Of a stretch of DNA of 38,855 bases, positions 1 through 38,762 are shown piece after piece; positions within the stretch are counted from its first letter, which is position 1; each line of letters starts with the position of its first letter. Source of the DNA: Bacteroidia bacterium 43-41. GTDB lineage: Bacteria; Bacteroidota; Bacteroidia; Bacteroidales; Dysgonomonadaceae. The stretch spans positions 1 to 38,855 of the forward strand of contig MKTD01000059.1 in assembly GCA_001898165.1 (NCBI GenBank), written 5' to 3'. Below the pieces are notes generated by a model. That model did no database searches and was not told the DNA's origin. It was given only the letters and a program-made list of their open reading frames with translations. Both the position numbers and the translations under genes were made by a program.

Positions 1-78
1 GCATTACGGGTATTGCAACGAAGCATCCGGTTCACCTACGAAAGAGACGAAGAAACAGGAATAATTTATATTAAATAA
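1..78 (+). CDS. FecR family anti-sigma factor, C-terminal end only
   Basis: The window opens inside a reading frame of 25 codons that ends with TAA at 76-78. The visible tail (LRVLQRS, then IRFTYERDE and GIIYIK) looks like the C-terminal DUF4974 domain of Bacteroidota FecR proteins, which ends in a short beta-hairpin of this kind. FecR proteins sit in the inner membrane and hold an ECF sigma factor until a TonB receptor signals. The gene lies directly upstream of a susC whose product carries an N-terminal signalling (STN) domain, the usual order sigma-fecR-susC-susD. The call rests on 25 residues plus context, and the bulk of the gene and its sigma factor lie outside the window. Confidence 0.6.
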   Translation, partial: ALRVLQRSIRFTYERDEETGIIYIK

Positions 79-215
79 TGTGCCTATGGAGTAAAACCAA
101 TTACAACATCCGGAAAAACAAAAATCGGCAAGCGCTGCAACGCCCACCGATTATACGTTTTCGTCAACACAACCAGGAAATATTCAATGTATTAACTAAA
201 AACAATTACAAATGT

Positions 216-3200
216 ATGAAGAAAAACAATTCATCGGGTAATAATTTAACCGAAAAAGTACCCATTAAACATTTTTTATTGATCATGAGAACAATCTTTA
301 TTCTACTGTTTGCCTGTATCTTTTGCTCTATGGCAGAAGTTGGCTATACTCAAAACGCCAGGGTAACCATCAATAAACGAAATGTAACTCTCAAAGAAGT
401 TTTAAACGAAATTGAAAGCCAAACCGATTACCTGTTCATTTACAGCAACGAGGTAAATGCCAACGAAAAGGTATCGGTAAAATCCAAACAACAAGCTGTT
501 GCCAATGTGCTGAATAAGCTTTTGAAAGGTAAAGATATGGATTATTCCATGGAAGGAAACCATATTATCCTTTCAGCGATCGAAAAAGCAAGCCAGCGGG
601 AAAAAGGGACAGTTTCTGCTATTGCTCAACAGCAGAAGAAAACAATCACCGGAACGGTTGTTGATGTCGCAGGTGTACCCGTTATCGGAGCAAACATTGT
701 TGAAGCGGGAACAACCAACGGAACCGTTACCGATGTAGATGGTAATTTTTCGCTACAGATAGAAAATAATGCAACTATTCGTGTGTCGTATATAGGATAT
801 TTGGAGCAAAGCATCAATACTGTCGGAAGAACAAATTTCAATATAACGCTTGCTGAAGATACAAAAGCATTGGAAGAGCTTGTAGTTGTTGGTTATGGAA
901 TACAGAAAAAAGTAAATTTAACCGGTTCTATCGCAATAGTTGATTCTGAAAGTATAGAAAACAGATCATTTACAAATGCTTCACAGGCTTTACAAGGAGT
1001 CAAGGGGTTGTATGTAAATCAGGCTGGAGGAAGACCTGGAGCGGATGAAGCTACTATCCGGGTAAGGGGTGTAGGAACTATTGGTGGATCGGGAAAATTA
1101 GCGCCATTAGTACTTGTTGATGGTATAGAGACCTCTCTTATGGATGTTAATCCAAATGACATAGAGAGTATCAGTATTCTGAAAGATGCTGCATCAGCAT
1201 CAATTTATGGGTCTCGGGCGGCAAATGGTGTTATATTGATTACAACAAAAATTGGAAAGACCGATAAGCCAATTATCAATTATAGTGGTTATATAGGTAT
1301 GCAATCTCCCACAATATTACCTGATCCTGTTGATAATTCAGCAACATTTATGGAATGGTATAACAAAGCCATGGTAAATCAAGGGGGAATACCTTATTAT
1401 TCAAATGAACTAATCCAAGAGTTTAGAAATAACCCTACTAGTCTTTTGTATCCTAATACAAATTGGATGGATGTTTTATTTGGCAATGCGCTTATTTACG
1501 AACATAATTTAAGATTTTCTGGTGGTACCAACACAACAAAATATAACTTTTCTACAAGTTTTTTGGATCAAGATGGTGTATTGAAAGGTATGACAGGAGC
1601 AAAAAAGTATAATCTTAATTTACGTATCCAACAAAAATTTTCTGAGCGATTTGGGATTGATGTAGGTTTAACTGCCAATAGATGGGATATTGAACAACCA
1701 TCAGAGGGTATTAGTACTGCAATGAACCGCATTATGCGCATGGTGCCTGTACAACCTGTCGGAAGAATGGAAAATGGAGATTGGCCGGATTGTTGGGTTA
1801 CAACGCCAGGTCAAAATTCTTTCCAAAATCCATTAGTTTTAAAAGAAGACCACTATGGTAAAGAACAAACTAATCGATTACTAGCCAACTTATCTGCTTT
1901 TATCAAAATAACTAATAATCTGCAATACGAAGCGAGAGGATCTGTAAATTATAGTAATTTATTGCGGAAAAACTTTGCTCCGGTCACTTGGTTACATGAT
2001 GTAAGAACGAGTAATCCAACAAGACACCCTTGGAGTTCAACAGGAGTTAAAACCGAATATACAAGCAATAATGAGAGGGTTAACTTTACTCATACTCTCA
2101 GGTATACTGGAGTTATTAAAGATATACACAATGTTTCACTACTAGCCGGGAATAGTGTCGAGCAATATACATCTTCAAATCGACAAGCACGAAAAACAGG
2201 GTATCCAAATAAAGATTTAGATGAACTGGATGTTGGTTCAATGGATCCTACAGTTGCAGGATCATCTTTGGAAGACGCACTCATTTCCTATTTTGGACGT
2301 TTTCAATATGATTTTAAAAATAAATACCTTTTTGAAGCTAATTTACGTTATGATGGCTCTTCAAAATTTGCTAAAGATAATAGATGGGGATTATTCCCTT
2401 CTTTTTCTGCCGGCTGGAGAATTTCAGAAGAAAGTTTTATGGATAAAGCTTCCTGGATTGACGAACTTAAACTTAGAGGTTCCTGGGGACAAATTGGCAA
2501 TCAGGATATCGGAAGATTTCAGTACGTAAATGCTGTGTCATTAGGTTATGGGTATCCTTTTGGAGGTAAATATGATGGTGGAGGAGTTGCTATTACTCAG
2601 TATCGTGATCCTAAAATTAAATGGGAGACTACCACTATGACTAATATTGGAGTCGATTGGTCTTTTTTAAGAGGAAAAATTTCAGGTGAATTTGAGTATT
2701 TTTATAAAAGGACAAAAGATATTCTCAGAGGAATAGCTTTGCCTGCACAGATAGGGGCCTTAGCAGGACCAACTACAAATTTAGCTGTTGTTGATAATTA
2801 TGGCATTGAGTTAGGATTGAATTATCAAGGAAAAATTGGAAAAGATTTTTCTTATCAAATTGGAGGAAACTTCACATACATAAAAAATAATGTCGTAGAT
2901 TTAAATGGTGAGACGATAATTAGTGGTGGAAGAATTACGAAAGCGGGATCTCCTATTGATTCATGGTATGTTTTACAAACCGATGGGCTTTTCCAATCAC
3001 AAGAAGAAGTAGATAATTATCCCACAATTACAAGCAGGGTAGGGCCTGGTGATATCAAATATGTAGATCGTAATAAAGATGGTGTGATTGACGGAGAAGA
3101 TCGATATATTGCAGGAAATACCTTTCCCACCTATACATATGGTTTCAATATTGGTTTTACTTATAAATCATTTTCGCTCTCTACAATTTGGCAAGGAGTC

Positions 3201-3614
3201 GGAGATATTTCCGTTAGGCCTAATAATAATATGGCTTCGCCCTTTAATAATGGTGCTGGAATTACAAAAGACTGGCTAACTGATTCTTGGACACCAGAAA
3301 ACAAAGATGCTCGTTTACCGAGAATTACGACAAGAAACCAATACACTGCTGAGAATTTTTCTGATTCAGACTTTTGGCTGGAAGATGCATCCTACCTACG
3401 TCTGAAAAATATTCAACTGAATTATGAACTTAGCCGATCTATATTTGATAAAATTGGTTTTTTGAGTCGAGCAAATATCTTCGTCAATGCCGAAAACATA
3501 TTAACTTTCACCAATGCAAGACTATTTGACCCTGAACGCGACATTATAGCAACGAATATTGATCAGTATCCAACTGTTAAAACGATTTCTTTGGGTTTAA
3601 ATATTACATTTTAA
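216..3614 (+). CDS. susC: SusC/RagA family TonB-linked outer membrane transporter with STN domain
   Basis: This is an outer-membrane TonB-dependent transporter that works with the SusD lipoprotein to import oligosaccharides. I start it at the ATG at 216 (MKKNNSSGN), giving 1132 residues; the frame stays open to 78, but the extra 46 residues are polar and precede the signal region. After a hydrophobic segment (MRTIFILLF) comes an STN domain at about 48-120, a carboxypeptidase-D regulatory-like beta-sandwich at about 141-215 (TITGTVVD), the SusC plug start (VVVGYGIQKK) and a long beta-barrel ending in NITF. The STN domain is the part that passes the substrate signal to FecR, matching the FecR tail just upstream. 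Coding composition is AT-rich. The transported glycan cannot be read from the sequence. Confidence 0.95.
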   Translation: MKKNNSSGNNLTEKVPIKHFLLIMRTIFILLFACIFCSMAEVGYTQNARVTINKRNVTLKEVLNEIESQTDYLFIYSNEVNANEKVSVKSKQQAVANVLNKLLKGKDMDYSMEGNHIILSAIEKASQREKGTVSAIAQQQKKTITGTVVDVAGVPVIGANIVEAGTTNGTVTDVDGNFSLQIENNATIRVSYIGYLEQSINTVGRTNFNITLAEDTKALEELVVVGYGIQKKVNLTGSIAIVDSESIENRSFTNASQALQGVKGLYVNQAGGRPGADEATIRVRGVGTIGGSGKLAPLVLVDGIETSLMDVNPNDIESISILKDAASASIYGSRAANGVILITTKIGKTDKPIINYSGYIGMQSPTILPDPVDNSATFMEWYNKAMVNQGGIPYYSNELIQEFRNNPTSLLYPNTNWMDVLFGNALIYEHNLRFSGGTNTTKYNFSTSFLDQDGVLKGMTGAKKYNLNLRIQQKFSERFGIDVGLTANRWDIEQPSEGISTAMNRIMRMVPVQPVGRMENGDWPDCWVTTPGQNSFQNPLVLKEDHYGKEQTNRLLANLSAFIKITNNLQYEARGSVNYSNLLRKNFAPVTWLHDVRTSNPTRHPWSSTGVKTEYTSNNERVNFTHTLRYTGVIKDIHNVSLLAGNSVEQYTSSNRQARKTGYPNKDLDELDVGSMDPTVAGSSLEDALISYFGRFQYDFKNKYLFEANLRYDGSSKFAKDNRWGLFPSFSAGWRISEESFMDKASWIDELKLRGSWGQIGNQDIGRFQYVNAVSLGYGYPFGGKYDGGGVAITQYRDPKIKWETTTMTNIGVDWSFLRGKISGEFEYFYKRTKDILRGIALPAQIGALAGPTTNLAVVDNYGIELGLNYQGKIGKDFSYQIGGNFTYIKNNVVDLNGETIISGGRITKAGSPIDSWYVLQTDGLFQSQEEVDNYPTITSRVGPGDIKYVDRNKDGVIDGEDRYIAGNTFPTYTYGFNIGFTYKSFSLSTIWQGVGDISVRPNNNMASPFNNGAGITKDWLTDSWTPENKDARLPRITTRNQYTAENFSDSDFWLEDASYLRLKNIQLNYELSRSIFDKIGFLSRANIFVNAENILTFTNARLFDPERDIIATNIDQYPTVKTISLGLNITF

Positions 3615-3626
3615 GATTTAAAATAT

Positions 3627-5132
3627 ATGAAAAAGTTAAGATATTATTTATTCAGCTTATTTTTGTTCGGTCTATTGGGTTGTAGTAATTTACTCGATAC
3701 AAATCCGACAAACTTTTACAGCCAAGAAACTTATTGGCAAAATTCTCAACACGCATTAAATGCTTTGACAGGTTGTTATCAGGCTCTCACGAATTCAGAT
3801 TTATATGATGCGCAAATTCCATTTATGTTTGAAGCCATGAGCCCAAACGCTTTTAATTATGATAATCAGGGTGCAGCCGGGGATATTGCAAGAGGTGTTC
3901 ACACTGCAACAACATTGGGAATAAATAATTTTATGTGGCGTGGATGTTACAGAGGTATAGGGCGGTGTAATACACTGCTCTCAAATATAGAGAGAATAGA
4001 CATGGATAGCCAATTAAAATCAAGAATTATCGGTGAAGCTAAGTTTCTTCGTGCATTCTATTATTATCGTCTCAATATACTTTTTAATGGTGTTCCACTG
4101 ATTATAGATGAACCTGATCCAGCGAAACAGGCAACTTTACCACGTAATAGCTATGATGAAGTATTAAAGCAAGTTTTTAAAGATCTGAATGACGCTGCAA
4201 GCGTATTACCTGCTTCTTACTCTAAGTCTGATAAAGGAAGAGTGACGAAAGGTGCTGCCTTGGCACTTAAAGCAAGAGCTTTGTTGCAAAATTATGAGTA
4301 CAATGAAGTAGTGAACACTATTGAAGAAATTTTTGATCTTAACGTTTACTCACTCTATCCTAATTATAATGGGATTTTCAGAAAAGCAAATGAAGGAAAT
4401 CAGGAGATTATTTTTGATATTAGATTTCAAGCTCCGGAATTAACTAATTCCTATGACATCATTATGGCCCAATACAGTACTCAAGCTCCTGTCAAAGGAC
4501 TTGTAGATCTTTATCAAATGATAGATGGGTTACCCATTGCGGAGAGCGAGCTTTATAATCCTGAACGACCTTACGAGAATAGAGATCCGAGATTTAAACA
4601 ATCTATTTTATATATTGGTGCCCCTTGGCGTAATAGGACGGCTACTACCGCAGATTTACATCAGACAGGTTTTTCATTTAGAAAATTCACAGAATATAAT
4701 GAATCAACGCAAGGGACAATTTCTAATTCTGACGTAAACTATGTGGAGATACGTTTTGCCGACGTTTTACTCATGTACGCTGAAGCTCTGAATGAAATTT
4801 CAGGACCTACAGACGATGTATATAATGCAATAAATAGTATTCGTCAACGTACAACAGTAGGAATGCCGGTTATTCCGCAAGGATTAAGCAAAGAATCTAT
4901 GAGAGAAGTGATCAGACTAGAGCGTAGAATTGAATTGGCTGGTGAAGGTTCTTATTTTTATGATATAAGAAGATGGAGAACCATAGAAAAAGAAATGAAT
5001 GAACCGATTTTTGATTATAAAGGAGATCTCATTGAAAATAGAAAGTTTGATCCTGCCAGAGATTATTTTTGGCCGATACCTTATACTGAAATTGACTTAA
5101 ATCCTAATTTACAACAAAATCCAGGGTATTAG
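3627..5132 (+). CDS. susD: SusD/RagB family starch-binding-like lipoprotein
   Basis: The 501-residue product begins with a lipoprotein signal (FLFGLLGCSN, lipid-anchored Cys near residue 19) and the typical early SusD motif LLDTNPTNFYSQETYW. Helical TPR-like repeats carry the family pattern with RAFYYYRL near 148, and the C-terminus has the conserved RFADVLLMYAEALNE and RRIELAGEG blocks followed by DYFWPIP. SusD caps the SusC barrel on the cell surface and binds the incoming glycan. It starts 12 bases after the susC stop and is surely co-transcribed. The length is normal for the family. The ligand cannot be told from the sequence. Confidence 0.95.
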   Translation: MKKLRYYLFSLFLFGLLGCSNLLDTNPTNFYSQETYWQNSQHALNALTGCYQALTNSDLYDAQIPFMFEAMSPNAFNYDNQGAAGDIARGVHTATTLGINNFMWRGCYRGIGRCNTLLSNIERIDMDSQLKSRIIGEAKFLRAFYYYRLNILFNGVPLIIDEPDPAKQATLPRNSYDEVLKQVFKDLNDAASVLPASYSKSDKGRVTKGAALALKARALLQNYEYNEVVNTIEEIFDLNVYSLYPNYNGIFRKANEGNQEIIFDIRFQAPELTNSYDIIMAQYSTQAPVKGLVDLYQMIDGLPIAESELYNPERPYENRDPRFKQSILYIGAPWRNRTATTADLHQTGFSFRKFTEYNESTQGTISNSDVNYVEIRFADVLLMYAEALNEISGPTDDVYNAINSIRQRTTVGMPVIPQGLSKESMREVIRLERRIELAGEGSYFYDIRRWRTIEKEMNEPIFDYKGDLIENRKFDPARDYFWPIPYTEIDLNPNLQQNPGY

Positions 5133-5161
5133 TGTAAAAGACTTTAAGTATAAATTAATAA

Positions 5162-5186
5162 TATCTGTGGTAGTTATCCACAGATA
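5162..5186 (+). repeat. Inverted repeat after susD, possible weak terminator
   Basis: TATCTGTGG at 5162-5170 pairs perfectly with CCACAGATA at 5178-5186 across a 7-base loop. It lies in the 119-base gap between susD and the phosphoesterase gene. No T-run follows, so it is a poor intrinsic terminator. It may instead trim or stabilise the susCD mRNA, which often accumulates above its downstream genes in such loci. Nothing else is recognisable in this gap. Confidence 0.4.
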
Positions 5187-5251
5187 CTATTAATTCCATT
5201 CAGATTAAAAAAATTATCCATAAACATTATATAATTTAAATTCCTAGACCA

Positions 5252-6274
5252 ATGTTTATTTTACGCAAGCACATATTTAAATTTAGTCATTTTTTTATTT
5301 TATTTTTGATCCTCATATTTATCTCTGAATCTGTTTTTCCAAAAGAAAGAAATGACACGTTGAAATTCGTACATCTTACAGATATACACCTTATTTTAAA
5401 TCCTATAAGTTACGATTCAAATTTTATTCAAAGACGTTTTAATTATTTTTGGCATGATACAAAGCCATTTGTAAAGTTCTTGAATGCTAATCCTATAATT
5501 AAACAATCAGATTTTTTAGTTGTGACAGGTGATATGATAGATTTTTACGAAGCGGAATCAATAGAAGGAGGATTAATAGGTAATCAAATAGAATTATTTC
5601 AAAAACTTATCAATTCTGAGACCAATTCTATTGTTTATTTAACATTAGGGAATCATGATATAACGAGCTATCCTAAAGGAATGTATCATCAAAATCATGC
5701 AAATACTGCAAGATCAACATGGATAAAAAATTTGCCAGTTTTTAATCAAGGTACTTATTACAGTAAAATATACAACGTAGGTAGTACTAAATATCGCTTG
5801 ATCTTTTTGGATAATGCTTATTTTTCTGTTAAGACACAGAAGGAACAAGCTGCTTTTATTATTGATCGTCCACAATTAGATTGGTTAAAGGCACAATTAA
5901 ATGAATCTCCAGATGATAAAGAAATTATTTTTATGCATATGCCATTACCTGTTCTCAGTAATAATCAAGATGGGGAAAAAGCTAATCCCTATTTAATCTA
6001 TGATGATTATGTAAATAGAACCAATACACAAGATTTTCTAAATGTTTTGAAAGACGCAAACAATGCTTCCATTCAAATAATTGTAGCAGGGCACGAACAT
6101 AAAAACGATTTGTTTGATTTTAATTTTTCAGAGAATTTCAGCTTCAAGCAAATAAAAACCGGCACTTTTGGGAATAGTGTTAATAATTGGCGTTTATTTC
6201 AGCTTACAGAATCTGATATTATTATTTCAATACCCGATTCTTTAAATCAGACAATTAAAATACCACTGAAATGA
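5252..6274 (+). CDS. Secreted calcineurin-like metallophosphoesterase
   Basis: The 340-residue protein has an N-terminal hydrophobic export signal (about 10-30) and all five metallophosphoesterase blocks in order: DIH at 44-46, GDMID from 93, GNHD at 133-136, MHMP around H229 and GHEH at 280-283. These Asp, His and Asn residues hold the two metals of the active site. It probably removes a phosphate or phosphodiester group from a substrate in the periplasm or on the surface. It follows susD and overlaps the next gene by four bases, so it belongs to the same locus. The gene is very AT-rich. Phosphatases are less common than glycoside hydrolases in such loci and hint at a phosphorylated substrate, but the specificity is unknown. 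Confidence 0.85.
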   Translation: MFILRKHIFKFSHFFILFLILIFISESVFPKERNDTLKFVHLTDIHLILNPISYDSNFIQRRFNYFWHDTKPFVKFLNANPIIKQSDFLVVTGDMIDFYEAESIEGGLIGNQIELFQKLINSETNSIVYLTLGNHDITSYPKGMYHQNHANTARSTWIKNLPVFNQGTYYSKIYNVGSTKYRLIFLDNAYFSVKTQKEQAAFIIDRPQLDWLKAQLNESPDDKEIIFMHMPLPVLSNNQDGEKANPYLIYDDYVNRTNTQDFLNVLKDANNASIQIIVAGHEHKNDLFDFNFSENFSFKQIKTGTFGNSVNNWRLFQLTESDIIISIPDSLNQTIKIPLK

Positions 6275-7194
6275 GAAAGAGAAAATCAGATCTAAATTTC
6301 TATTTACAATTAGTTATTTTGTTTTTTCTTCTTATATTTTTACATTCGTGCGGAAATTCAAAGCTGAAATCAATTCCAAATGATGCAATAATAGTATGCG
6401 GAGATAGTAAAGTATTGATAGTAGAGTTTCCAGAACAGGGTGATACTATTCCTCACATCGCCTGGAGTTGGGATGCTCAAATTGCTAATGATCTTCCTTT
6501 TGAATATAGAACAAGAAAATTCAACTCAATTGATGATTGTAAATCTATAAATAACGGGGAGCAATTGATGATTTCATCTTCGTCAGGGGCTATTGCCATA
6601 GTAAATATCGAAGATAATAAGGTAACATTTATAGCCGATGTTCCCAATGCACATTCGGTTGAAATAATACCTGGAAATAAAATTATTGCTGCAGCTTCGA
6701 CAGCCCCGGAAGGTAATCAATTGATGTTATTTGATATTAATCAACCTTCAAAATTATTGGATACCGATAGTTTATATTCAGCCCATGGCCTTGTTTGGGA
6801 TAACCGGAGAAATATTCTATTTGCTCTAGGTTATGATGTCTTAAGAGAATATAAAATAAATTATGAAAATAAACTTATTGTGAACGATGAGTGGAAAATT
6901 CCGGGCATCAGTGGACACGATTTATCAATATCACAAGATGGAAATAATCTTTTCATCACAGAACATACAGGAGCATGGATTTTCAACATAGAAAATCATA
7001 GTTTTAGTAAAATTGAACAGTTTCCGGATGCTGAAAATATAAAAAGTATCAACCAGAATAAGAATCACCTGTACGTTTATACAGTAGCAGAAGAAAGTTG
7101 GTGGACATATCAAGTTAAATTCTTCAATCCTTCAGGTTATTTAAGTTTCCCGAATCTTCGTGTCTATAAAGCCAGGTTCTACAATGTTAATTGA
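6271..7194 (+). CDS. DUF6528-like beta-propeller lipoprotein, function unknown
   Basis: This 307-residue protein carries a signal sequence with a lipobox (FLHSCGNS, Cys near 27). The segment with IIVCGDSKVLIVEF and then HIAWSWDA resembles the start of DUF6528 proteins as I remember them. The rest is rich in short beta strands with repeated patterns (VNIEDNKVTFIAD, MLFDINQPSKLLD), which suggests a beta-propeller like those of PQQ or NHL-repeat proteins. Its ATG overlaps the phosphoesterase stop (ATGA), implying translational coupling. It may bind the substrate or assist the neighbouring phosphoesterase or sulfatase at the membrane. No catalytic motif is evident. The family name is from memory and moderately secure; the lipoprotein call is firm. 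Confidence 0.65.
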   Translation: MRKRKSDLNFYLQLVILFFLLIFLHSCGNSKLKSIPNDAIIVCGDSKVLIVEFPEQGDTIPHIAWSWDAQIANDLPFEYRTRKFNSIDDCKSINNGEQLMISSSSGAIAIVNIEDNKVTFIADVPNAHSVEIIPGNKIIAAASTAPEGNQLMLFDINQPSKLLDTDSLYSAHGLVWDNRRNILFALGYDVLREYKINYENKLIVNDEWKIPGISGHDLSISQDGNNLFITEHTGAWIFNIENHSFSKIEQFPDAENIKSINQNKNHLYVYTVAEESWWTYQVKFFNPSGYLSFPNLRVYKARFYNVN

Positions 7195-7211
7195 TAAAAA
7201 ATATAAGTAAT

Positions 7212-8723
7212 ATGAAACAATTTTTTGTAGCAGGTTTAAGTATATTGAACTTTTCGCCGATTATTGCTCAACAACAGCCTCCTAATATTATTTTTATCCT
7301 TACTGATGATTTAGGCTATGGAGACTTGGGATGTTACGGGCAAACAAAAATAGAGACACCCAATATCGATGGGCTTGCAAGACATGGAATATGCTTTACA
7401 CAACATTACTCCGGTTCACCTGTATCTGCACCTTCGCGTTGTGTACTTCTTACAGGCAAACATTCAGGACATGCCTATATTAGGGGCAATGACGAAATGG
7501 TCGAAAGGGGTGATGTATGGAGCCATCAAGCAATGTTTGATAATCCTTTCCTTGAGGGACAACGTCCTATACCGGCATCCACTTTCACTATTCCTCAAAT
7601 GTTTAAACAAAAAGGATATGCCACAGCATGTATTGGTAAATGGGGGTTAGGATATCCGGGGTCTGAAAGTACGCCTACCAAAATGGGATTCGATTTTTTC
7701 TATGGATATAATTGTCAACGTCAGGCACACACTTATTATCCTCCTTTTTTGTATCGAAACGAAAACCGGGAATATTTAAACGACAAACATATCCTTCAAC
7801 CGGGAACTAAATTAGAGCAATCAGCAGATCTTTTTGATGAAAAGAACTATCAAAAGTTCACCCAGAAAGATTATGCCCCGGATTTGATGTTTAGGGAAAT
7901 TCTCTCGTTTGTGAATAAAAATAAGGAGAATAATTTCCTTTTAATGTGGACCACGCCCATTCCCCATGTCCCTCTACAAGCTCCAAAAAAATGGATAGAC
8001 TACTATGTCAATAAGTTTGGAGAAGAACAACCCTATTCAGGAGATTTTGGATACTACCCTACGCGTTTTCCACATGCTACCTATGCGGCAATGATTTCTT
8101 ATCTTGATGAGCAAATAGGGTTACTAGTGGAATGTTTAAAAGAGAATAACCTGTATGAAAACACATTAATCATTTTCACCAGTGATAATGGACCGACATT
8201 TAATGGAGGGTCTGATTCTCCGTGGTTTAGAAGTGCTGGTCCATTTAAATGTGAACGTGGTTGGGGTAAAGCGTCATTGCATGAAGGAGGAATTCGCGTA
8301 CCATTCATTGCCACGTGGCCTGCAAAAATTCAACCTAAAAGAATATCAAATCATGTTTCCGTCGCTTGGGATATTATGCCGACCTTTGCTGAAATTCTTG
8401 GAACAAAGGTTTTAACAGATGGCATTAGTTTTTTACCAGAACTTACCGGAATAAAGCAAATCCACACTCACGATTATTTGTATTGGGAATATCCCGAAAG
8501 CGGGGGGTCAATAGCTATCCGGATGCATAACTGGAAGGGCATTATCAGTAATATAAATGAAGGTAATGACAGGATGAAATTGTTCGACCTAAATACAGAT
8601 CCCTCAGAATTATTTGATCTGTCAAACCAATATCCTAATATTATTACTTTATTAAAAGAAAATATCCGCAGAGCACGGGTTACTCCGGAAGTGGAAAAAT
8701 TCAAATTTATATTTGAAAAATAG
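7212..8723 (+). CDS. Secreted Ser-type arylsulfatase-like sulfatase
   Basis: I chose the ATG at 7212 (MKQFFVAGL, a clean signal peptide ending near AQQQ), giving 503 residues; the frame reaches back to a TTG at 7191 that overlaps the previous stop and would put polar residues before the signal. The sulfatase core is clear: DDLGYGDLG near 32-40 supplies metal-binding Asp residues, and S-A-P-S-R at 72-76 followed by CVLLTG is the formylglycine signature with Ser in the modified position. SDNGPTF and GGIRVPF follow. Ser-type sulfatases need a radical-SAM maturase (anSME), which is not in this window. Placement behind susCD suggests desulfation of a host or algal-type glycan. The sulfated sugar cannot be predicted. 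Confidence 0.92.
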   Translation: MKQFFVAGLSILNFSPIIAQQQPPNIIFILTDDLGYGDLGCYGQTKIETPNIDGLARHGICFTQHYSGSPVSAPSRCVLLTGKHSGHAYIRGNDEMVERGDVWSHQAMFDNPFLEGQRPIPASTFTIPQMFKQKGYATACIGKWGLGYPGSESTPTKMGFDFFYGYNCQRQAHTYYPPFLYRNENREYLNDKHILQPGTKLEQSADLFDEKNYQKFTQKDYAPDLMFREILSFVNKNKENNFLLMWTTPIPHVPLQAPKKWIDYYVNKFGEEQPYSGDFGYYPTRFPHATYAAMISYLDEQIGLLVECLKENNLYENTLIIFTSDNGPTFNGGSDSPWFRSAGPFKCERGWGKASLHEGGIRVPFIATWPAKIQPKRISNHVSVAWDIMPTFAEILGTKVLTDGISFLPELTGIKQIHTHDYLYWEYPESGGSIAIRMHNWKGIISNINEGNDRMKLFDLNTDPSELFDLSNQYPNIITLLKENIRRARVTPEVEKFKFIFEK

Positions 8724-33406: not shown

Positions 33407-33414
33407 TATTTTTG
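33407..33414 (+). promoter_or_regulatory. Candidate -7 box before the ECF-type operon
   Basis: TATTTTTG matches the Bacteroidota -7 pattern TAnnTTTG, 46 bases before the ATG at 33460. A clear TTTG at the right distance upstream is missing (TGG at 33384-33386 is the nearest). The 140-base gap 33320-33459 shows no riboswitch fold that I recognise. Confidence 0.35.
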
Positions 33415-33459: not shown

Positions 33460-33969
33460 ATGGCAACTACTGCAAAACTTTATTCACTCCACCTTAGCAA
33501 CACAAAAACCTATTTGTTTGCAATCGTTTTTGTAACCGGCAATTTATTGCTGCCGCAACTGGCGCATCTTGTTCCACAAGGAGGATTAATCCTGCTCCCC
33601 ATCTATTTCTTTACGCTGATTGCAGCGTATAAGTATGGGATCCACGTGGGGTTACTCACTGCAGTTTTATCGCCTTTGGCCAACAACCTGTTGTTCGGGA
33701 TGCCGCCATCTGCCATGCTCCCGGCAATCATCATCAAATCGGTTATTTTAGCGGTTGCGGCAGCCACGGCAGCCAAACATTTCGGGAAAGTTTCATTTCT
33801 TGGAATTTTGCTGGCAATCCTTGCCTATCAGGTGGTAGGCACCGGAATTGAGTGGGCAATGACTCAAAACTTTTTCACGGCTGTTCAGGATTTCCGTATC
33901 GGTGTTCCGGGAATGCTTATTCAACTTGTAGCCGGATATTTTGTACTGAAAGCATTGGCCAAAGTTTAA
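33460..33969 (+). CDS. ECF transporter S component-like membrane protein
   Basis: The 169-residue protein consists of about five or six hydrophobic segments with short loops. Size and pattern (GGLILLPIYFFTLIAAYKYG, VGLLTAVLSPLANNLLFGMPP, LPAIIIKSVILAVAAATAAKHFGK) match substrate-capture (S) components of energy-coupling-factor transporters, which bring vitamins, metal ions or nucleobase-like molecules across the inner membrane. No EcfA/EcfT genes are nearby, which is normal for group II S components that share a common energising module. Its operon partners, a phosphoribosyltransferase 17 bases downstream and a TonB receptor, suggest a base- or vitamin-like ligand. The subfamily cannot be named from the sequence. 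Confidence 0.65.
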   Translation: MATTAKLYSLHLSNTKTYLFAIVFVTGNLLLPQLAHLVPQGGLILLPIYFFTLIAAYKYGIHVGLLTAVLSPLANNLLFGMPPSAMLPAIIIKSVILAVAAATAAKHFGKVSFLGILLAILAYQVVGTGIEWAMTQNFFTAVQDFRIGVPGMLIQLVAGYFVLKALAKV

Positions 33970-33986
33970 ATAACTATCGAATAACA

Positions 33987-34385
33987 ATGTCCGGCAAGTC
34001 TTTTGAAGAAGTAATGCAAAGGTTTCGTGAGATTGAATTTCACGAAACTTTTGATATAATCGTGGCCATTGCCAACGGTGGAATTATTCCGGCGGCTATT
34101 CTGAATCAACGGTTGAATACTGAGATTCAGCTATTGAAAATTAATCTTCGTGATCCGTACCAAAAGCCTAAATACGATAGTCCCAGGCTGCTCTCGCCTG
34201 TCGATTTCAATTTCATGGGCAAAACCGTTCTTTTGGTGGAAGATCGCATAAAAACAGGGGCGACTGTACAATTCGCCATCGATCTTTTACAAGGTGCCAG
34301 ACAAATAAAGACCTTCGCGGTAAACGGAAATGCCGATTATGCGCTTTATAACGAAGATTGTTTCAAGTTTCCCTGGATTGTATGA
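33987..34385 (+). CDS. Small phosphoribosyltransferase-domain protein
   Basis: The ATG at 33987 gives 132 residues. The PRPP-binding motif of type I phosphoribosyltransferases is present as KTVLLVEDRIKTGATVQFA near 78-96, with acidic pair E-D followed by TGAT. IVAIANGGIIPAAIL near 27 is the pyrophosphate-loop region. At 132 residues it is shorter than most purine or pyrimidine enzymes, and its hood region is different, so the acceptor base is open. It lies between an ECF S component and a TonB receptor whose ATG overlaps its stop (ATGA), so it probably acts on, or is controlled by, whatever they import. It could also be a regulatory relative without catalysis. Confidence 0.75.
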   Translation: MSGKSFEEVMQRFREIEFHETFDIIVAIANGGIIPAAILNQRLNTEIQLLKINLRDPYQKPKYDSPRLLSPVDFNFMGKTVLLVEDRIKTGATVQFAIDLLQGARQIKTFAVNGNADYALYNEDCFKFPWIV

Positions 34386-36265
34386 GTAAATTAGCGTTTT
34401 TTCTCTGTGCATGCTTATCTGTTTCCTCAACCATCTGTGCGGATGAAAACAATCCGCCGCAAATTAACGATACCATCCGCCTGGATGAGGTGATCGTTAC
34501 CGGTACGCTGCCGAAAGTGAATCCGAGAAACGTCCCGATGAGCATTTCCGTCGTCGGTGAACGACAAATTCAAAACCGGCTGGAGCCGTCTCTTCTGCCG
34601 CTGCTTACCGAAGAAGTTCCCGGACTCTTCATCACTCAGCGCGGTGTGATGGGATACGGGGTGGCAGCCGGCGGCGCCGGAGGAATGAGCATTCGCGGAA
34701 TTGGCGGCACGCCCACATCGGGGGTGTTGGTGCTCATTGACGGACATCCGCAATATATGGGACTGATGGGGCATCCGCTTGCCGACAGTTACCAGTCGCT
34801 GATGGCCGAACGCGTGGAAGTGGTTCGCGGCCCGGCTTCGGTGCTTTACGGCTCCAATGCGATGGGCGGGGTAATCAACATCATTACTAAAGAACAGAAA
34901 CGGAACGGCGCCCGCCATTCGGCCCGGGTCATGTACGGGAACTACAATACCTTAAGCGCTGAAGCATCCGGCGGATGGAAGAAAGAGAGGTTGCGCGTCA
35001 ACGGGAACATCGGTTACAACCGTTCCGGCGGACATCGGGAAAATATGGATTTTGAACAGATAAACGGTTATGGAAAAATCGGGTACGATTTTACAAGGAA
35101 TTGGAGCGGCTTGATAGACTTGAACCTCTCAAATACCCGATCGTCCAATCCGGGCACGACAGCTGCTCCGATAATCGACAACGACGCCGATATCACGCGC
35201 GGGATGGCCTCTTTCGCCCTTGAGAATGAATACGAGAAGACATCCGGAGCGTTAATATTTTTCTACAATTCCGGGACGCACAGGATCAACGACGGATATT
35301 CAGAAGGACAACAGCCAAAACCGTTCCGATTCAATTCGGACGACCAGATGCTGGGGTTTTCGGCCTATCAGTCCTACGCCTTTTTCGAAGGGAACAGAAC
35401 CACTGCCGGATTCGATTTTCAGCGTTACGGAGGAAAGGCGTGGAATAAATTTCCCGACGAATCCAACAATGTGCAGTTGGCCGATGTGCACCTGAACGAC
35501 GTGGCCGGCTATATCAATGTACAACAAAGTTTACTGGAGAACAGGCTCACATTGAATGCGGGAATAAGGCTCGATAATCACGAAAAGAACGGCCCGGAAT
35601 GGATTCCGCAATTCGGATTAAGTTTCGCCCCTGCAGCTTCAACGGTTGTGAAAGCCGTCATAAGCAAAGGATTCCGGAACCCCACCATTCGCGAGATGTA
35701 TATGTTTCCACCGCAAAACCCGGATTTGCTTCCGGAAAGATTGATGAATTACGAAGTTTCGCTCATGCAGTCGTTGCTCCAAAACCGGTTGAATCTGGGG
35801 TTGAACCTGTTCTATATCAAAGGCGACAATATGATTCAGCAAGCCGAGCCGGGAATTGGCAAATGGGAAAACTCCGGAAAAGTGGAGAACAAAGGGTTCG
35901 AGATCAGCGCCGACTATCAAGCCACGCGCGATTTACGGTTATCGGCCAATTACAGTCTATTGGACATGACCTATAAGATATTGGCAGCTCCGGAACACAA
36001 GTTATACATGGGTGGAAGTTACACGAAAGAGAGGTGGAATCTCTCCACCGGTATCCAATACATTGGCAATTTGTATAAAGCCGTAAGGCCGGAGCCGGTA
36101 AGGGAGAGCTTTGTCCTTTGGAACGCCCGCATAAATTACCGGGCGCTTGGTTGGTTAGATCTATTTTTAAAAGGTGAAAATTTACTTGGACAGGAATACG
36201 AAATAAATGCCGGATATCCGATGCCGAAAACTACTCTCTTCGGCGGTGCCCAGTTACATTTTTGA
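34382..36265 (+). CDS. TonB-dependent outer membrane receptor (BtuB-like size, non-SusC)
   Basis: The ATG at 34382 begins a signal peptide (SKLAFFLCACLSVSSTICA) and gives 627 residues. A TonB-box-like DEVIVTG lies near 33, followed by the plug (MSIRGIGGTPTSGVLVLIDG, VEVVRGPASVLYGSNAMGGVINIIT) and a barrel ending in GGAQLHF. The length and lack of STN or carboxypeptidase-type domains place it with vitamin and metal-chelate receptors such as BtuB or siderophore receptors, not with SusC. It is translationally coupled to the phosphoribosyltransferase. It presumably imports the same small molecule as the ECF S component. The ligand is unknown. Confidence 0.92.
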   Translation: MSKLAFFLCACLSVSSTICADENNPPQINDTIRLDEVIVTGTLPKVNPRNVPMSISVVGERQIQNRLEPSLLPLLTEEVPGLFITQRGVMGYGVAAGGAGGMSIRGIGGTPTSGVLVLIDGHPQYMGLMGHPLADSYQSLMAERVEVVRGPASVLYGSNAMGGVINIITKEQKRNGARHSARVMYGNYNTLSAEASGGWKKERLRVNGNIGYNRSGGHRENMDFEQINGYGKIGYDFTRNWSGLIDLNLSNTRSSNPGTTAAPIIDNDADITRGMASFALENEYEKTSGALIFFYNSGTHRINDGYSEGQQPKPFRFNSDDQMLGFSAYQSYAFFEGNRTTAGFDFQRYGGKAWNKFPDESNNVQLADVHLNDVAGYINVQQSLLENRLTLNAGIRLDNHEKNGPEWIPQFGLSFAPAASTVVKAVISKGFRNPTIREMYMFPPQNPDLLPERLMNYEVSLMQSLLQNRLNLGLNLFYIKGDNMIQQAEPGIGKWENSGKVENKGFEISADYQATRDLRLSANYSLLDMTYKILAAPEHKLYMGGSYTKERWNLSTGIQYIGNLYKAVRPEPVRESFVLWNARINYRALGWLDLFLKGENLLGQEYEINAGYPMPKTTLFGGAQLHF

Positions 36266-36297
36266 AGTTACAGTATGAATAACAAATTAAAAACATT

Positions 36298-37239
36298 ATG
36301 GACAGACGAAATTTTTTAAAAGCTGTTGCCCTGACCGGCGCAGCCATCACAACCATTGAAGATGCCGATGCGATGAGCGTGTTGACGCAATCGTTTCAAA
36401 CAACCCATGCCGCGGCTAAATACGATTTGGTGGCCGTTCTGGGCGGTGAGCCCGAAGTGATGTTCCGCAAAGCGATTGATGAAATGGGAGGAATGAGAAA
36501 CTTCATCAGCAAAGGCGACAAAGTCTGTGTAAAACCGAACATAGGATGGGATAAAACACCTGAACTGGCGGCAAACACCAATCCGAAACTCGTACAGGAA
36601 ATTATCAAACAATGTTTTGATGCGGGAGCAAGGGAAGTAACGGTTTTCGACCATACCTGCGACGATTGGCGTAAATGCTACGCCAACAGCGGAATTGAAG
36701 AGGCAGCAAAAGCCGCCGGAGCAAAAGTGGTTCCCGCACATCAGGAATCGTATTACAAGAGCGTTTCTTTGCCAAAGGGCAAAAGCCTGAAAGAGGCCAA
36801 AATACATCAGGCAATTGTTGATTCCGACAAATGGATCAATGTACCCATCCTTAAGAATCACGGCGGCGCACAATTGACCATCTCCATGAAGAACTACATG
36901 GGAATTGTTTGGGACAGAGGATTTTTCCACGCTAACGATTTGCAGCAATGCATCGCCGATGTTTGTACGTATGCAAAACGTCCGGTCCTTAATGTAGTTG
37001 ATGCTTACCGGTTGATGAAAACAAGCGGTCCGAGAGGAAAATCGGAAGCCGATGTAGTATTATCGAAAGGCCTGTTCATCTCGCAAGACATTGTGGCCGT
37101 TGACACAGCTGCGGCTAACTTCTTTAACCAGGCCAGGGAGATGCCGTTGGATAAAGTTGGTCATCTGGCAAAAGGACAGGAACTAGGGGTCGGGACAATG
37201 AATCTCGATAAGCTGAATATCAGGAGGGTGCGAATTTAA
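36298..37239 (+). CDS. DUF362 domain-containing protein with Tat-like signal
   Basis: The 313-residue protein starts MDRRNFLKAVALTGAA, a twin-arginine type signal. The DUF362 features follow: VCVKPNIGWDKTPELAANTN, VTVFDHTCDDW, WINVPILKNHGGAQLTISMKNYMGIV and DKVGHLA near the end. DUF362 proteins are uncharacterised for the most part and are often fused or adjacent to ferredoxin domains. This one has few cysteines and probably relies on the polyferredoxin encoded 11 bases downstream. Together they look like a periplasmic or membrane-bound redox unit. The start ATG at 36298 is 32 bases after the receptor stop. Confidence 0.88.
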   Translation: MDRRNFLKAVALTGAAITTIEDADAMSVLTQSFQTTHAAAKYDLVAVLGGEPEVMFRKAIDEMGGMRNFISKGDKVCVKPNIGWDKTPELAANTNPKLVQEIIKQCFDAGAREVTVFDHTCDDWRKCYANSGIEEAAKAAGAKVVPAHQESYYKSVSLPKGKSLKEAKIHQAIVDSDKWINVPILKNHGGAQLTISMKNYMGIVWDRGFFHANDLQQCIADVCTYAKRPVLNVVDAYRLMKTSGPRGKSEADVVLSKGLFISQDIVAVDTAAANFFNQAREMPLDKVGHLAKGQELGVGTMNLDKLNIRRVRI

Positions 37240-37250
37240 TCAACTAAATT

Positions 37251-38762
37251 ATGCTTAAAAAAGTCAGGGTAACCGCATCTGTAGTTCTTTTTGCCTTAAT
37301 AACGCTCTACTTTCTTGATTTTGCCGGCTTCCTGCCGGAAAATTTCAGCGTTTTAGCTGATATTCAATTCATTCCAGCATTGCTTGCGCTTAATATCGTT
37401 GTTCTTATAGCGCTGGTGGTACTCACCCTTATTTTCGGCAGGGTGTATTGTTCATCTATCTGCCCCATGGGTATTTATCAAGATATTGTGGCCTGGTTTT
37501 CAAAAAAGGCCCGAAAAAAGAAACGATACACCTACAGCAAGGCTAAAACAATTCTTCGATGGAGCGTTTTGGGTGCAACGCTTATCGCTTTTTTGTCCGG
37601 ATTCACATTTTTGCTCGGGATGCTCGATCCGTATGGCGCATACGGCCGGTTCGTAACTCATCTTTTCCGTCCCGCTTATCTTGCCGGGAACAATTTACTG
37701 GAAACCATTTTCACATCGTTCAACAATTACAGTTTATATAAAGTCGGCATCTACTCGTTGGGGTTGTTTTCGATGATCATGGCGTTGGTCACGTTGCTTG
37801 TTATCGGGTTTTTAGCTTGGAAAAACGGGCGGACCTATTGCAACACCATTTGTCCTGTAGGGACTACGCTTGGTTTTCTGAGCAGGTTTTCGCTTTTCAA
37901 GATCCAGTTCGCAGATGAAAAGTGTAATATGTGCGGTTTGTGCTCCATGAAATGCAAAGCATCGTGTATCGACTCGAAAAACAAAATCGTTGACTACAGC
38001 CGGTGCGTCACTTGTTTTAATTGTATTGAAGCGTGTAAACGCAGTGCAATGAGATACGCACCGGTATTTACCCGGTCAAAAGAGAGCAAGCCGGCCGACG
38101 AATCGAAACGCCGCTTCCTTTTAGCTACATTAGTTACAAGCCTGGCTGCCGGAAAGCTGATTGCCCAAACCGTTACCCAGCCGTCATTGTCCAAACGCGA
38201 ATTGAAACGCCAAACTCCCATTGCCCCTCCCGGAGCACTCAGTTTCGATCATTTTCGCGAGAAATGTATTTCGTGCCACCTCTGCGTGAGCAAATGCCCG
38301 TCGCACGTGATAAAACCGGCTTTTCTGGAATATGGGCCGGGCGGGATGATGCAACCTAAGCTTTATTTTGATCACGGATTTTGCAATTACGACTGTACGG
38401 TCTGCTGCGACATTTGTCCCACAGATGCTTTAGTGAAACTTACCGGGGAAGAGAAGCACCACACGCAGATGGGGAGGGTGAATTTCATTATCGAGAACTG
38501 TATTGTGTATTACGACGAAACCAATTGCGGCGCCTGCTCCGAGCACTGTCCCACTCAAGCAGTCTATATGGTTCCTTACAAAGGCTCATTAACCATTCCC
38601 GAAACAAATCCGAATATTTGCGTGGGGTGTGGCGGGTGCGAGTATGTGTGTCCGGCAATTCCTTATAAAGCCATTTATGTGGAAGGGCTTACTGCTCACA
38701 ATACCATTGAGATCAAGCAGGAAAAGGTGGAAGAAGTGACAATTGATGAGTTTGGATTTTGA
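37251..38762 (+). CDS. Membrane-bound 4Fe-4S polyferredoxin (NapH/NosR-like)
   Basis: The 503-residue protein has four or five membrane segments in the first 200 residues. Two C-x3-CP motifs (CSSICPMG and CNTICPVG) lie next to these segments, as in NapH- and NosR-type electron carriers. The C-terminal part holds several ferredoxin-like sites: CNMCGLCSMKC, CVTCFNCIEACK, CISCHLCVSKCP, CTVCCDICP, CGACSEHCP and CVGCGGCEYVCP. It should move electrons between quinol or ferredoxin and a soluble partner, most likely the DUF362 protein. A short hydrophobic, Ala-rich stretch near 290 (LLATLVTSLAAG) resembles an internal Tat-like segment. The function in this operon is unknown. The last 93 bases of the window after it hold nothing recognisable. 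Confidence 0.88.
   Translation: MLKKVRVTASVVLFALITLYFLDFAGFLPENFSVLADIQFIPALLALNIVVLIALVVLTLIFGRVYCSSICPMGIYQDIVAWFSKKARKKKRYTYSKAKTILRWSVLGATLIAFLSGFTFLLGMLDPYGAYGRFVTHLFRPAYLAGNNLLETIFTSFNNYSLYKVGIYSLGLFSMIMALVTLLVIGFLAWKNGRTYCNTICPVGTTLGFLSRFSLFKIQFADEKCNMCGLCSMKCKASCIDSKNKIVDYSRCVTCFNCIEACKRSAMRYAPVFTRSKESKPADESKRRFLLATLVTSLAAGKLIAQTVTQPSLSKRELKRQTPIAPPGALSFDHFREKCISCHLCVSKCPSHVIKPAFLEYGPGGMMQPKLYFDHGFCNYDCTVCCDICPTDALVKLTGEEKHHTQMGRVNFIIENCIVYYDETNCGACSEHCPTQAVYMVPYKGSLTIPETNPNICVGCGGCEYVCPAIPYKAIYVEGLTAHNTIEIKQEKVEEVTIDEFGF

Follow-up and report, generated by a model that had tools for sequence, protein, structure and literature searches.

A DUF362-containing operon of Bacteroidales that may acquire and use a nickel-pincer nucleotide cofactor

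The nickel-pincer nucleotide (NPN) is the cofactor of the lactate racemase LarA; it is synthesized with LarB, LarC and LarE (together LarBCE), of which LarC is the nickel-insertion enzyme. Here we describe five genes at the end of a 38,855-nucleotide stretch of DNA from Bacteroidia bacterium 43-41 (contig MKTD01000059.1 of assembly GCA_001898165.1; "the window" below), which are probably a cofactor salvage operon for a rare nickel cofactor that the genome seems unable to make. According to PMC11770544, His108 and His174 of LarA are catalytic, Arg75, Lys184 and His200 serve NPN, and DUF362 shares the Pfam clan CL0471 with DUF2088 (Lar_N); PMC12611868 describes NPN as joined to Lys by a thioamide, with a His ligand of the nickel. 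In PMC11796402 and PMC8305020, cyanobacteria and Haloferax volcanii are discussed as probable carriers of a further NPN protein that awaits identification. For the operon as a whole, LarA with its LarBCE pathway is one point of comparison, the periplasmic electron supply NapGH another, and B12 uptake by BtuB and the solitary S component BtuM a third.

The window is an entire contig of a 3.6 Mb genome (G000 in our survey), the assembly of which is 99.7% complete in 80 contigs. Its last 5.3 kb carries five plus-strand genes with gaps of 17, -4, 32 and 11 bases, encoding an S-component-like membrane protein (S1), a short type I phosphoribosyltransferase (PRT), a TonB-dependent receptor, a DUF362 protein and a membrane polyferredoxin. 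A first-pass annotation, made from the letters of the window, had listed the same genes and gaps, and we reproduced its coordinates from the open reading frames. It had also proposed that the operon imports a small ring compound through an energy-coupling factor (ECF) S component and the receptor, salvages the compound with 5-phosphoribosyl 1-pyrophosphate (PRPP) and processes it in a redox step.

The DUF362 protein (36298-37239, plus strand, 313 aa) scored 172.6 bits against its family (cut-off 24) and carries a predicted twin-arginine translocation (Tat) signal (TIGR01409, 20.5 bits, above the cut-off of 16.7; Pfam TAT_signal, 19.5 bits, below 22.7). By sequence, it retrieved nothing relevant from the PDB. 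Its AlphaFold model (predicted local distance difference test, pLDDT, 85; predicted template modelling score, pTM, 0.84) had 17 PDB matches at E<=0.001, all of them LarA-family NPN enzymes (best 9q3j, E 1.3e-6; also 6c1w and 5huq), the modelled likeness being limited to the core. When 14 diverse DUF362 proteins were combined into a profile and aligned with a LarA profile by hhalign (E 3.6e-5, probability 71%), His188 was paired with LarA His174 and Lys198 with LarA Lys184 (L. plantarum numbering). All 14 proteins, which belong to several DUF362 classes (alignment A6), have these two residues and His211 without exception, and the His-x9-Lys spacing was present in 50/50 and 66/67 DUF362 proteins scanned; one of 51 Tat-type proteins from loci with S1 departs from it. 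By eye only, His119 lies in the region of LarA His108; it was not paired by hhalign, and an equivalent of LarA Arg75 was not identified.

Compared with the LarA superfamily of nickel-pincer 2-hydroxyacid racemases and epimerases, the DUF362 protein is thus alike in predicted fold, in the His174 and Lys184 equivalents and in Pfam clan, but it carries a Tat signal and is paired with a polyferredoxin. Because of this partner, net redox chemistry would be likelier than racemization. We consider the case for DUF362 as an NPN enzyme a good one, and where the domain had been read as largely uncharacterized, we now put a candidate LarA-fold protein that has the key His and Lys of LarA and, in other genomes, stands beside NPN biosynthesis genes.

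To place the operon in its order, we surveyed 149 genomes, G000 included. DUF362 relatives were present in 45 of them at E<=1e-20; we dropped G046, with a single match of a distant class (E 2e-21), which left 44 genomes whose DUF362 is of the close type (47-72% identical). In 43 of these 44 loci the next gene after DUF362 is the polyferredoxin, and in the remaining one (L043) the contig ends there; DUF362-polyferredoxin is an old pair. LarC was found in 16/149 genomes, with LarB and LarE above cut-off in the same 16. In five of them (G006, G014, G112, G118 and G131, under four family labels, G014 and G131 being of one genus), LarC stands divergent beside the pair, at a distance of about 180-350 bp. 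Among the 11 genomes in which the pair and LarBCE are both present, five thus show this arrangement. LarE and LarB come after LarC in G014, G112 and G131, and in locus L072 (G014) all three exceeded curated cut-offs. The window differs from these five other Bacteroidales genomes in that LarBCE is absent above cut-off and S1-PRT-receptor stands in its place.

Across the survey, LarBCE was commoner with the pair (11/44 pair genomes vs 5/105 others, P 7e-4; all P values are from Fisher tests, which ignore phylogeny). The same held for a second membrane family, S2 (16/44 vs 5/105, P 2e-6), and for the receptor (17/44 vs 18/105, P 0.01). At least one of LarBCE, S1 and S2 was present in 32/44 pair genomes vs 21/105 others (P 1.7e-9). 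Within the 44 pair genomes, LarBCE (11 genomes) and S1/S2 (22 genomes) overlapped once (P 0.004); over all 149 genomes, where one is likewise shared, the exclusion was only suggestive (P 0.07), LarBCE and S2 being both present in G038. In G038, the LarC-LarB-LarE cluster adjoins a CbiQ-type transporter gene (L274:7360-9415), which may belong to an ECF importer for nickel.

G000 itself holds two LarA homologues. LarA1 scored 197 bits against Lar_N, and malate racemase was its best curated match (317 of 500 bits, below cut-off) as well as its best solved relative; LarA2 reached 653 bits vs 500 for the curated "nickel-dependent putative hexonate epimerase". A gene for an Nramp-type metal transporter lies 33 bp downstream of LarA1 on the same strand (L263:5493-8090). 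LarC was not found in G000, and the best LarB-like and LarE-like matches were at 52 vs 175 bits and 38 vs 150 bits. Judged from these sequences, G000 seems to need NPN yet to be without its synthesis. LarA was counted in the 23 genomes over the Lar_N cut-off, instead of the 26 at E<=0.001, and nine of the 149 genomes were LarA-positive on that count and LarBCE-negative. This class includes four of the six genomes with a PRT (P 9e-5, Fisher test).

We also scanned 14 named control genomes, in which LarC was found in six, DUF362 in five and Lar_N in two. LarC was present in 4/5 of the DUF362-bearing controls; the fifth was Bacteroides ihuae, where LarC was not found and which has a record (L198) of S1-PRT-DUF362-polyferredoxin. 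Synechococcus elongatus and Haloferax volcanii hold LarC and DUF362, and Lar_N was not found in either.

The neighbourhoods on the S1 side were taken from the best 80 of at least 575 S1 relatives in genome records, a sample biased to close kin. The whole five-gene set stood in one run in 28/80 loci, and the receptor alone was missing in 20 more, which argues that the set is not a product of chance. By member, the runs held a PRT in 57 loci, a Tat-type DUF362 in 50, a polyferredoxin in 55 and the receptor in 35. Within this sample, the nearest named relatives by S1 gene are Petrimonas and Proteiniphilum records, with related metagenome-assembled genomes (MAGs), and Petrimonas sp. IBARAKI (L163) has the same five genes at 84-95% identity. 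The receptor was missing from the Bacteroides versions seen. Another DUF362 class, the ferredoxin type (~373 aa, without an evident signal), lies upstream of S1 in 16/80 loci, mostly Bacteroides, even where the Tat type is missing (L201, L207, L215-L217, L223, L225, L227, L229, L230, L232, L234, L235, L237, L239 and L240). A third, lipoprotein class adjoins S1 in one locus (L114).

Seen from the pair, the picture is different. Among the 149 genomes, S1 was found in 17, the PRT in 6 and the receptor in 35 (E<=1e-80), and S1 stands in front of the pair in 4/44 loci (the window, L035, L036 and L038). Finding the genes apart in most relatives, which the first-pass annotation had named as a sign against a joint system, applies in part, as DUF362-polyferredoxin stands apart from S1, the PRT and the receptor across most of the order. 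The operon is modular, with an S1-PRT-receptor module separable from DUF362-polyferredoxin.

No Rfam family reached its gathering score in the window, and riboswitch control was set aside on that ground. Upstream of S1, a box of the Bacteroidota -7 type, TATTTTTG, lies at 33407-33414; such boxes are no commoner in the window than chance. Scans for promoter- and terminator-like sequences were uninformative. At the other end of the window, positions 1-8000 have a GC content of 0.32-0.37 vs 0.44-0.54 elsewhere.

S1 (33460-33969, plus strand, 169 aa) is the proposed inner-membrane importer. It scored 20.7 bits against Pfam ECF_trnsprt (PF12822), under the cut-off of 30.7; an NCBIfam match was absent, and its profile found nothing useful among PDB sequences. 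When its AlphaFold model (AF2; pLDDT 86.5) was compared with the PDB, the top 11 hits were all S components, RibU, FolT, ThiT and PanT among them, at query TM scores (TMq) of 0.49-0.69 and a best E of 6.5e-3, none reaching 0.001. One of these structures, 4huq chain S, is counted here as an S component, although its PDB title reads just "a transporter". The ECF transmembrane protein EcfT (PF02361) was not found in G000, so S1 probably works alone as a solitary S-component-like transporter; elsewhere in the survey, EcfT was present in 15/149 genomes (14 over cut-off) and in 4/38 of those with S1 or S2. The S components BioY and BtuM are said to work alone. With EcfT not found, import by an ECF system in the strict sense is unsupported.

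S2 comprises membrane proteins of 160-200 aa (L059:4334-4843, L052:2868-3380 and ten others; alignment A3). Its likeness to S components was judged by eye only, from length, hydrophobicity and position. In 16 of the 21 genomes with S2, a DUF362 gene is no more than 1 kb away, other DUF362 classes being involved in three of these (G020, G100 and G120), and S2 may be another importer of the cofactor. Relevant matches were absent from Pfam (three members scanned) and from NCBIfam (one member). We rejected S1 and S2 as a single family (hhalign 0.6%, E 0.1).

Beyond DUF362, S1 has other neighbours. In a Tidjanibacter MAG (L231:2-3717), the end of a LarA-type hexonate epimerase gene, a pdxB-like gene, gnd and S1 follow one another on one strand, with gaps of -1, 94 and 44 bases; the LarA fragment scored 272 bits over profile positions 256-411. 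Genes like gnd and pdxB, recognized by eye, also adjoin LarA2 in L265 and L266, there without S1. In other lineages, S1 occurs with a 4Fe-4S aldo/keto reductase that has a Tat-type motif by eye, with a polyferredoxin and often with DUF1893: in L108, L109, L114, L115, L117 and L119, S1, in most cases accompanied by the receptor or DUF1893, lies beside this reductase and the same polyferredoxin family. The PRT (57 loci) and DUF1893 (6 loci) never shared a run among the 80.

The PRT (33987-34385, plus strand, 132 aa) scored 44.9 bits in its Pfam family (cut-off 26.3), has the PRPP motif V[ED]DRxK[TS]G and is proposed to ribosylate the imported base. Its closest solved relative by profile is the purine PRT 1vdm, and against curated purine equivalogs (HPRT, XPRT) it reached at best 34.4 of the 138 bits that would place it among them. 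In purine PRTs, the Asp of the PRPP motif is catalytic and faces the base. A Lys stands where VDDxxDTG has this Asp in all 57 PRT relatives from S1 loci, and such a replacement would suit an anionic base.

The receptor (34382-36265, plus strand, 627 aa), with Pfam barrel and plug domains (142.3 and 75.7 bits), is the proposed outer-membrane importer. Its best equivalog was the B12 receptor BtuB, at 120.3 bits against a cut-off of 599.7. The operon resembles B12 uptake and salvage in combining an outer-membrane TonB receptor with an S-like inner-membrane protein, and in a metal-containing cofactor, and it differs in this distance of the receptor (120 vs 600 bits) and in having a PRT within the run. 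Accordingly, the worry that S component and receptor might fall into different known ligand families has not materialized, as S1 has no NCBIfam match and the receptor lies far below the B12 cut-off; for these reasons, together with the lack of a useful PDB sequence match for the S1 profile, we dropped the idea of reading the ligand from either family.

A nickel context surrounds the receptor family. In 9 of the 28 receptor loci examined, the receptor and the gene for the nickel regulator NikR are no more than 125 bp apart, none of the nine having S1, and NikR also adjoins LarBCE in two of nine LarBCE loci mapped (L279 and L280). This proximity ties the receptor family to nickel, not to NPN specifically. 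Beside receptor relatives in seven loci (L148, L152, L156, L157, L158, L161 and L162), we observed a nucleoside hydrolase-FmdE fusion, assigned by Pfam in L157 and by relatives of 33-45% identity in the other six, with NikR also adjacent in 4/7. An enzyme that cleaves nucleosides under the control of nickel would go well with a substrate of the NPN type. In L146 (6556-8844), DUF1893 and a TonB receptor share a single 762 aa frame, which may be a true fusion or stem from an error in the assembly or the frame.

The polyferredoxin (37251-38762, plus strand, 503 aa) has two Fer4_5 and several Fer4 stretches and is proposed to link the DUF362 protein to quinones and electrons. Its N half is NapH-like (TIGR02163, 86.4 vs 213 bits) and its C half NapG-like (TIGR00397, 57.2 vs 179 bits), both under curated cut-offs. 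NapGH is thus similar in its NapH-like membrane half, its NapG-like 4Fe-4S half and its Tat-type partner, whereas here the halves are fused and fall under the cut-offs, and the partner is DUF362 instead of nitrate reductase.

Taken together, we lean towards the view that the operon acquires and uses NPN or a close relative. With the gene order, the conserved residues, the genomic links and the absence of LarBCE above cut-off as observations, and the fold as a prediction, we infer the imported compound, the PRT reaction and the redox reaction with its direction as follows. The TonB receptor would take a nickel-pincer compound, or a precursor, across the outer membrane, and solitary S1 would take the base, or the compound, across the inner membrane. 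In the cytoplasm, the PRT would add ribose-5-phosphate from PRPP to give the mononucleotide. The DUF362 protein, with its candidate LarA fold, would bind the mononucleotide (Lys198, with His188 and His211 nearby) and fold, after which Tat would export it; loading in the cytoplasm before export by Tat agrees with a cofactor that is made in that compartment. In the periplasm, electrons would pass by way of the polyferredoxin between the DUF362 protein and the quinone pool. LarA-type hydride chemistry, in LarA a racemization, would in this way become a net oxidation or reduction, the likeliest substrate being a 2-hydroxy or 2-oxo acid. The salvaged cofactor would probably serve the two LarA homologues of G000 too. 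That S1-PRT-receptor salvages NPN is plausible and, in our judgement, could go either way. Of the outline in the first-pass annotation, import across two membranes, a PRPP-type enzyme and a redox end are retained, and its readings of the ligand, of ECF transport and of DUF362 are given up.

A number of observations weigh against this proposal, and they begin with its chemistry. Salvage is the weakest step, because NPN is a nucleotide bound to Lys and would have to reach another cell in one form or another, and we know of no type I phosphoribosyltransferase for an NPN-like pyridine base. The resemblance to LarA is distant: superpositions of the DUF362 model were loose (TMq 0.43-0.51, root-mean-square deviation 4.5-9.5 A, 9-14% identity), a profile of the window-type DUF362 alone failed against LarA in hhalign (0.2%), and the protein had no Lar_N (PF09861) match at E<=1 and no LarA_C match, so that we class it with DUF362, in the same clan, and not as a LarA. 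His211 lies at +13 from the Lys, three residues off the +16 of LarA His200, a spacing that the ferredoxin-type DUF362 does have. On the membrane side, the partner EcfT was not found in G000, and the run that joins S1 to LarA in L231 is one of 80 S1 loci, its LarA gene cut by the contig start.

The genome counts also contain exceptions, on top of the neglect of phylogeny in the Fisher tests. S1 itself was found in 6/44 pair genomes vs 11/105 others (P 0.58; S1 vs any DUF362, P 0.32), so the case for S1 with DUF362 rests on adjacency, not on co-occurrence. Twelve of the 44 pair genomes are without LarBCE, S1 or S2, the receptor being present in seven of them, and 7/17 of the S1 genomes are without DUF362, three of which (G029, G068 and G078) carry the aldo/keto-reductase-polyferredoxin set instead. 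DUF362 is missing in 3/16 LarBCE genomes, two of which (G016 and G132) are also without Lar_N, and Corynebacterium glutamicum and Methanocaldococcus jannaschii have LarC and neither DUF362 nor Lar_N; since these four have neither protein, DUF362 cannot explain every NPN maker without LarA. Among the LarA-positive, LarBCE-negative genomes, G022 and G136 are without either S family or the PRT, and G072, one of the four in that class with a PRT, has only a distant one (34%) without the characteristic Lys.

We weighed four other explanations. The operon might make NPN by another path and DUF362 still be an NPN enzyme: the receptor and S1 would import nickel chelates or a pyridine carboxylate, the PRT would replace the entry by LarB, and other enzymes would add sulphur and nickel. 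NikR near the receptor family in nine of 28 loci fits this, as do the PRT, a natural entry to a mononucleotide, and the absence of LarB, LarC and LarE above cut-off. We consider it unlikely, however, as a search of the 80 S1 loci (E<=1e-8) gave no relatives of LarB, LarC or LarE, the five-gene run has no other gene that might insert sulphur or nickel, and the Bacteroides versions seen dispense with the receptor. Import of a common vitamin, or of a base such as a purine-like one, with PRPP salvage and with DUF362-polyferredoxin in another redox step, would agree with the S-component fold of S1 and with the purine enzymes that are the closest solved PRTs. It would leave the LarBCE and LarA-fold links without explanation; moreover, Lys replaces the catalytic Asp in 57/57 PRT relatives, and a ligand-specific S or receptor family match above cut-off was not found, which makes this reading improbable. 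Salvage of B12, queuine, purine or nicotinate, considered from family knowledge, had been set back once LarC was found beside the pair.

DUF362 might instead use a different nucleotide cofactor on a LarA fold, with its proximity to LarBCE reflecting a shared anaerobic metabolism. LarBCE is indeed missing in 57/70 genomes with DUF362, the converse gaps noted above (three LarBCE genomes, C. glutamicum and M. jannaschii) point the same way, and the window-type DUF362 is remote from LarA by sequence. The invariant His and Lys at LarA positions, the divergent LarC beside the pair in five genomes under four family labels and the remaining named control genomes speak against it, and we rate it as a little less probable again. 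Least probable of all, to our mind, is a mosaic operon, in which S1-PRT-receptor and DUF362-polyferredoxin serve separate functions and are co-transcribed by chance. The two modules can be separated, and S1 was not significantly associated with the DUF362 pair across genomes, but S1 lies beside three DUF362 classes (Tat, ferredoxin type and lipoprotein), and S2, unrelated to it in sequence, has a DUF362 gene at most 1 kb away in 16/21 genomes.

The first-pass annotation knew of no described pathway with this gene set, and our literature search agreed with it, finding none. A search for NPN salvage or uptake returned nothing relevant, and neither an NPN uptake system nor a function of DUF362 appears in the available excerpts of PMC11770544, PMC7583248, PMC11796402, PMC12611868, PMC8305020 and PMC9283937.

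We tentatively suggest, as a possibility with somewhat less behind it than the operon-level proposal, that DUF362 proteins are a second, widespread class of NPN enzymes, quinone- or ferredoxin-linked oxidoreductases of Bacteroidota, cyanobacteria and halophilic archaea, and that S1-PRT-receptor is the first known route of NPN uptake and salvage. A second class would explain many genomes that have LarBCE and are without LarA, and would give a role to a large protein family of unknown function. Were DUF362 the missing NPN protein of cyanobacteria and H. volcanii, a domain of unknown function would be given both its cofactor and its mechanism. Should the operon salvage NPN, the nutrients shared in gut and digester communities would include a nickel cofactor, exchanged like B12.

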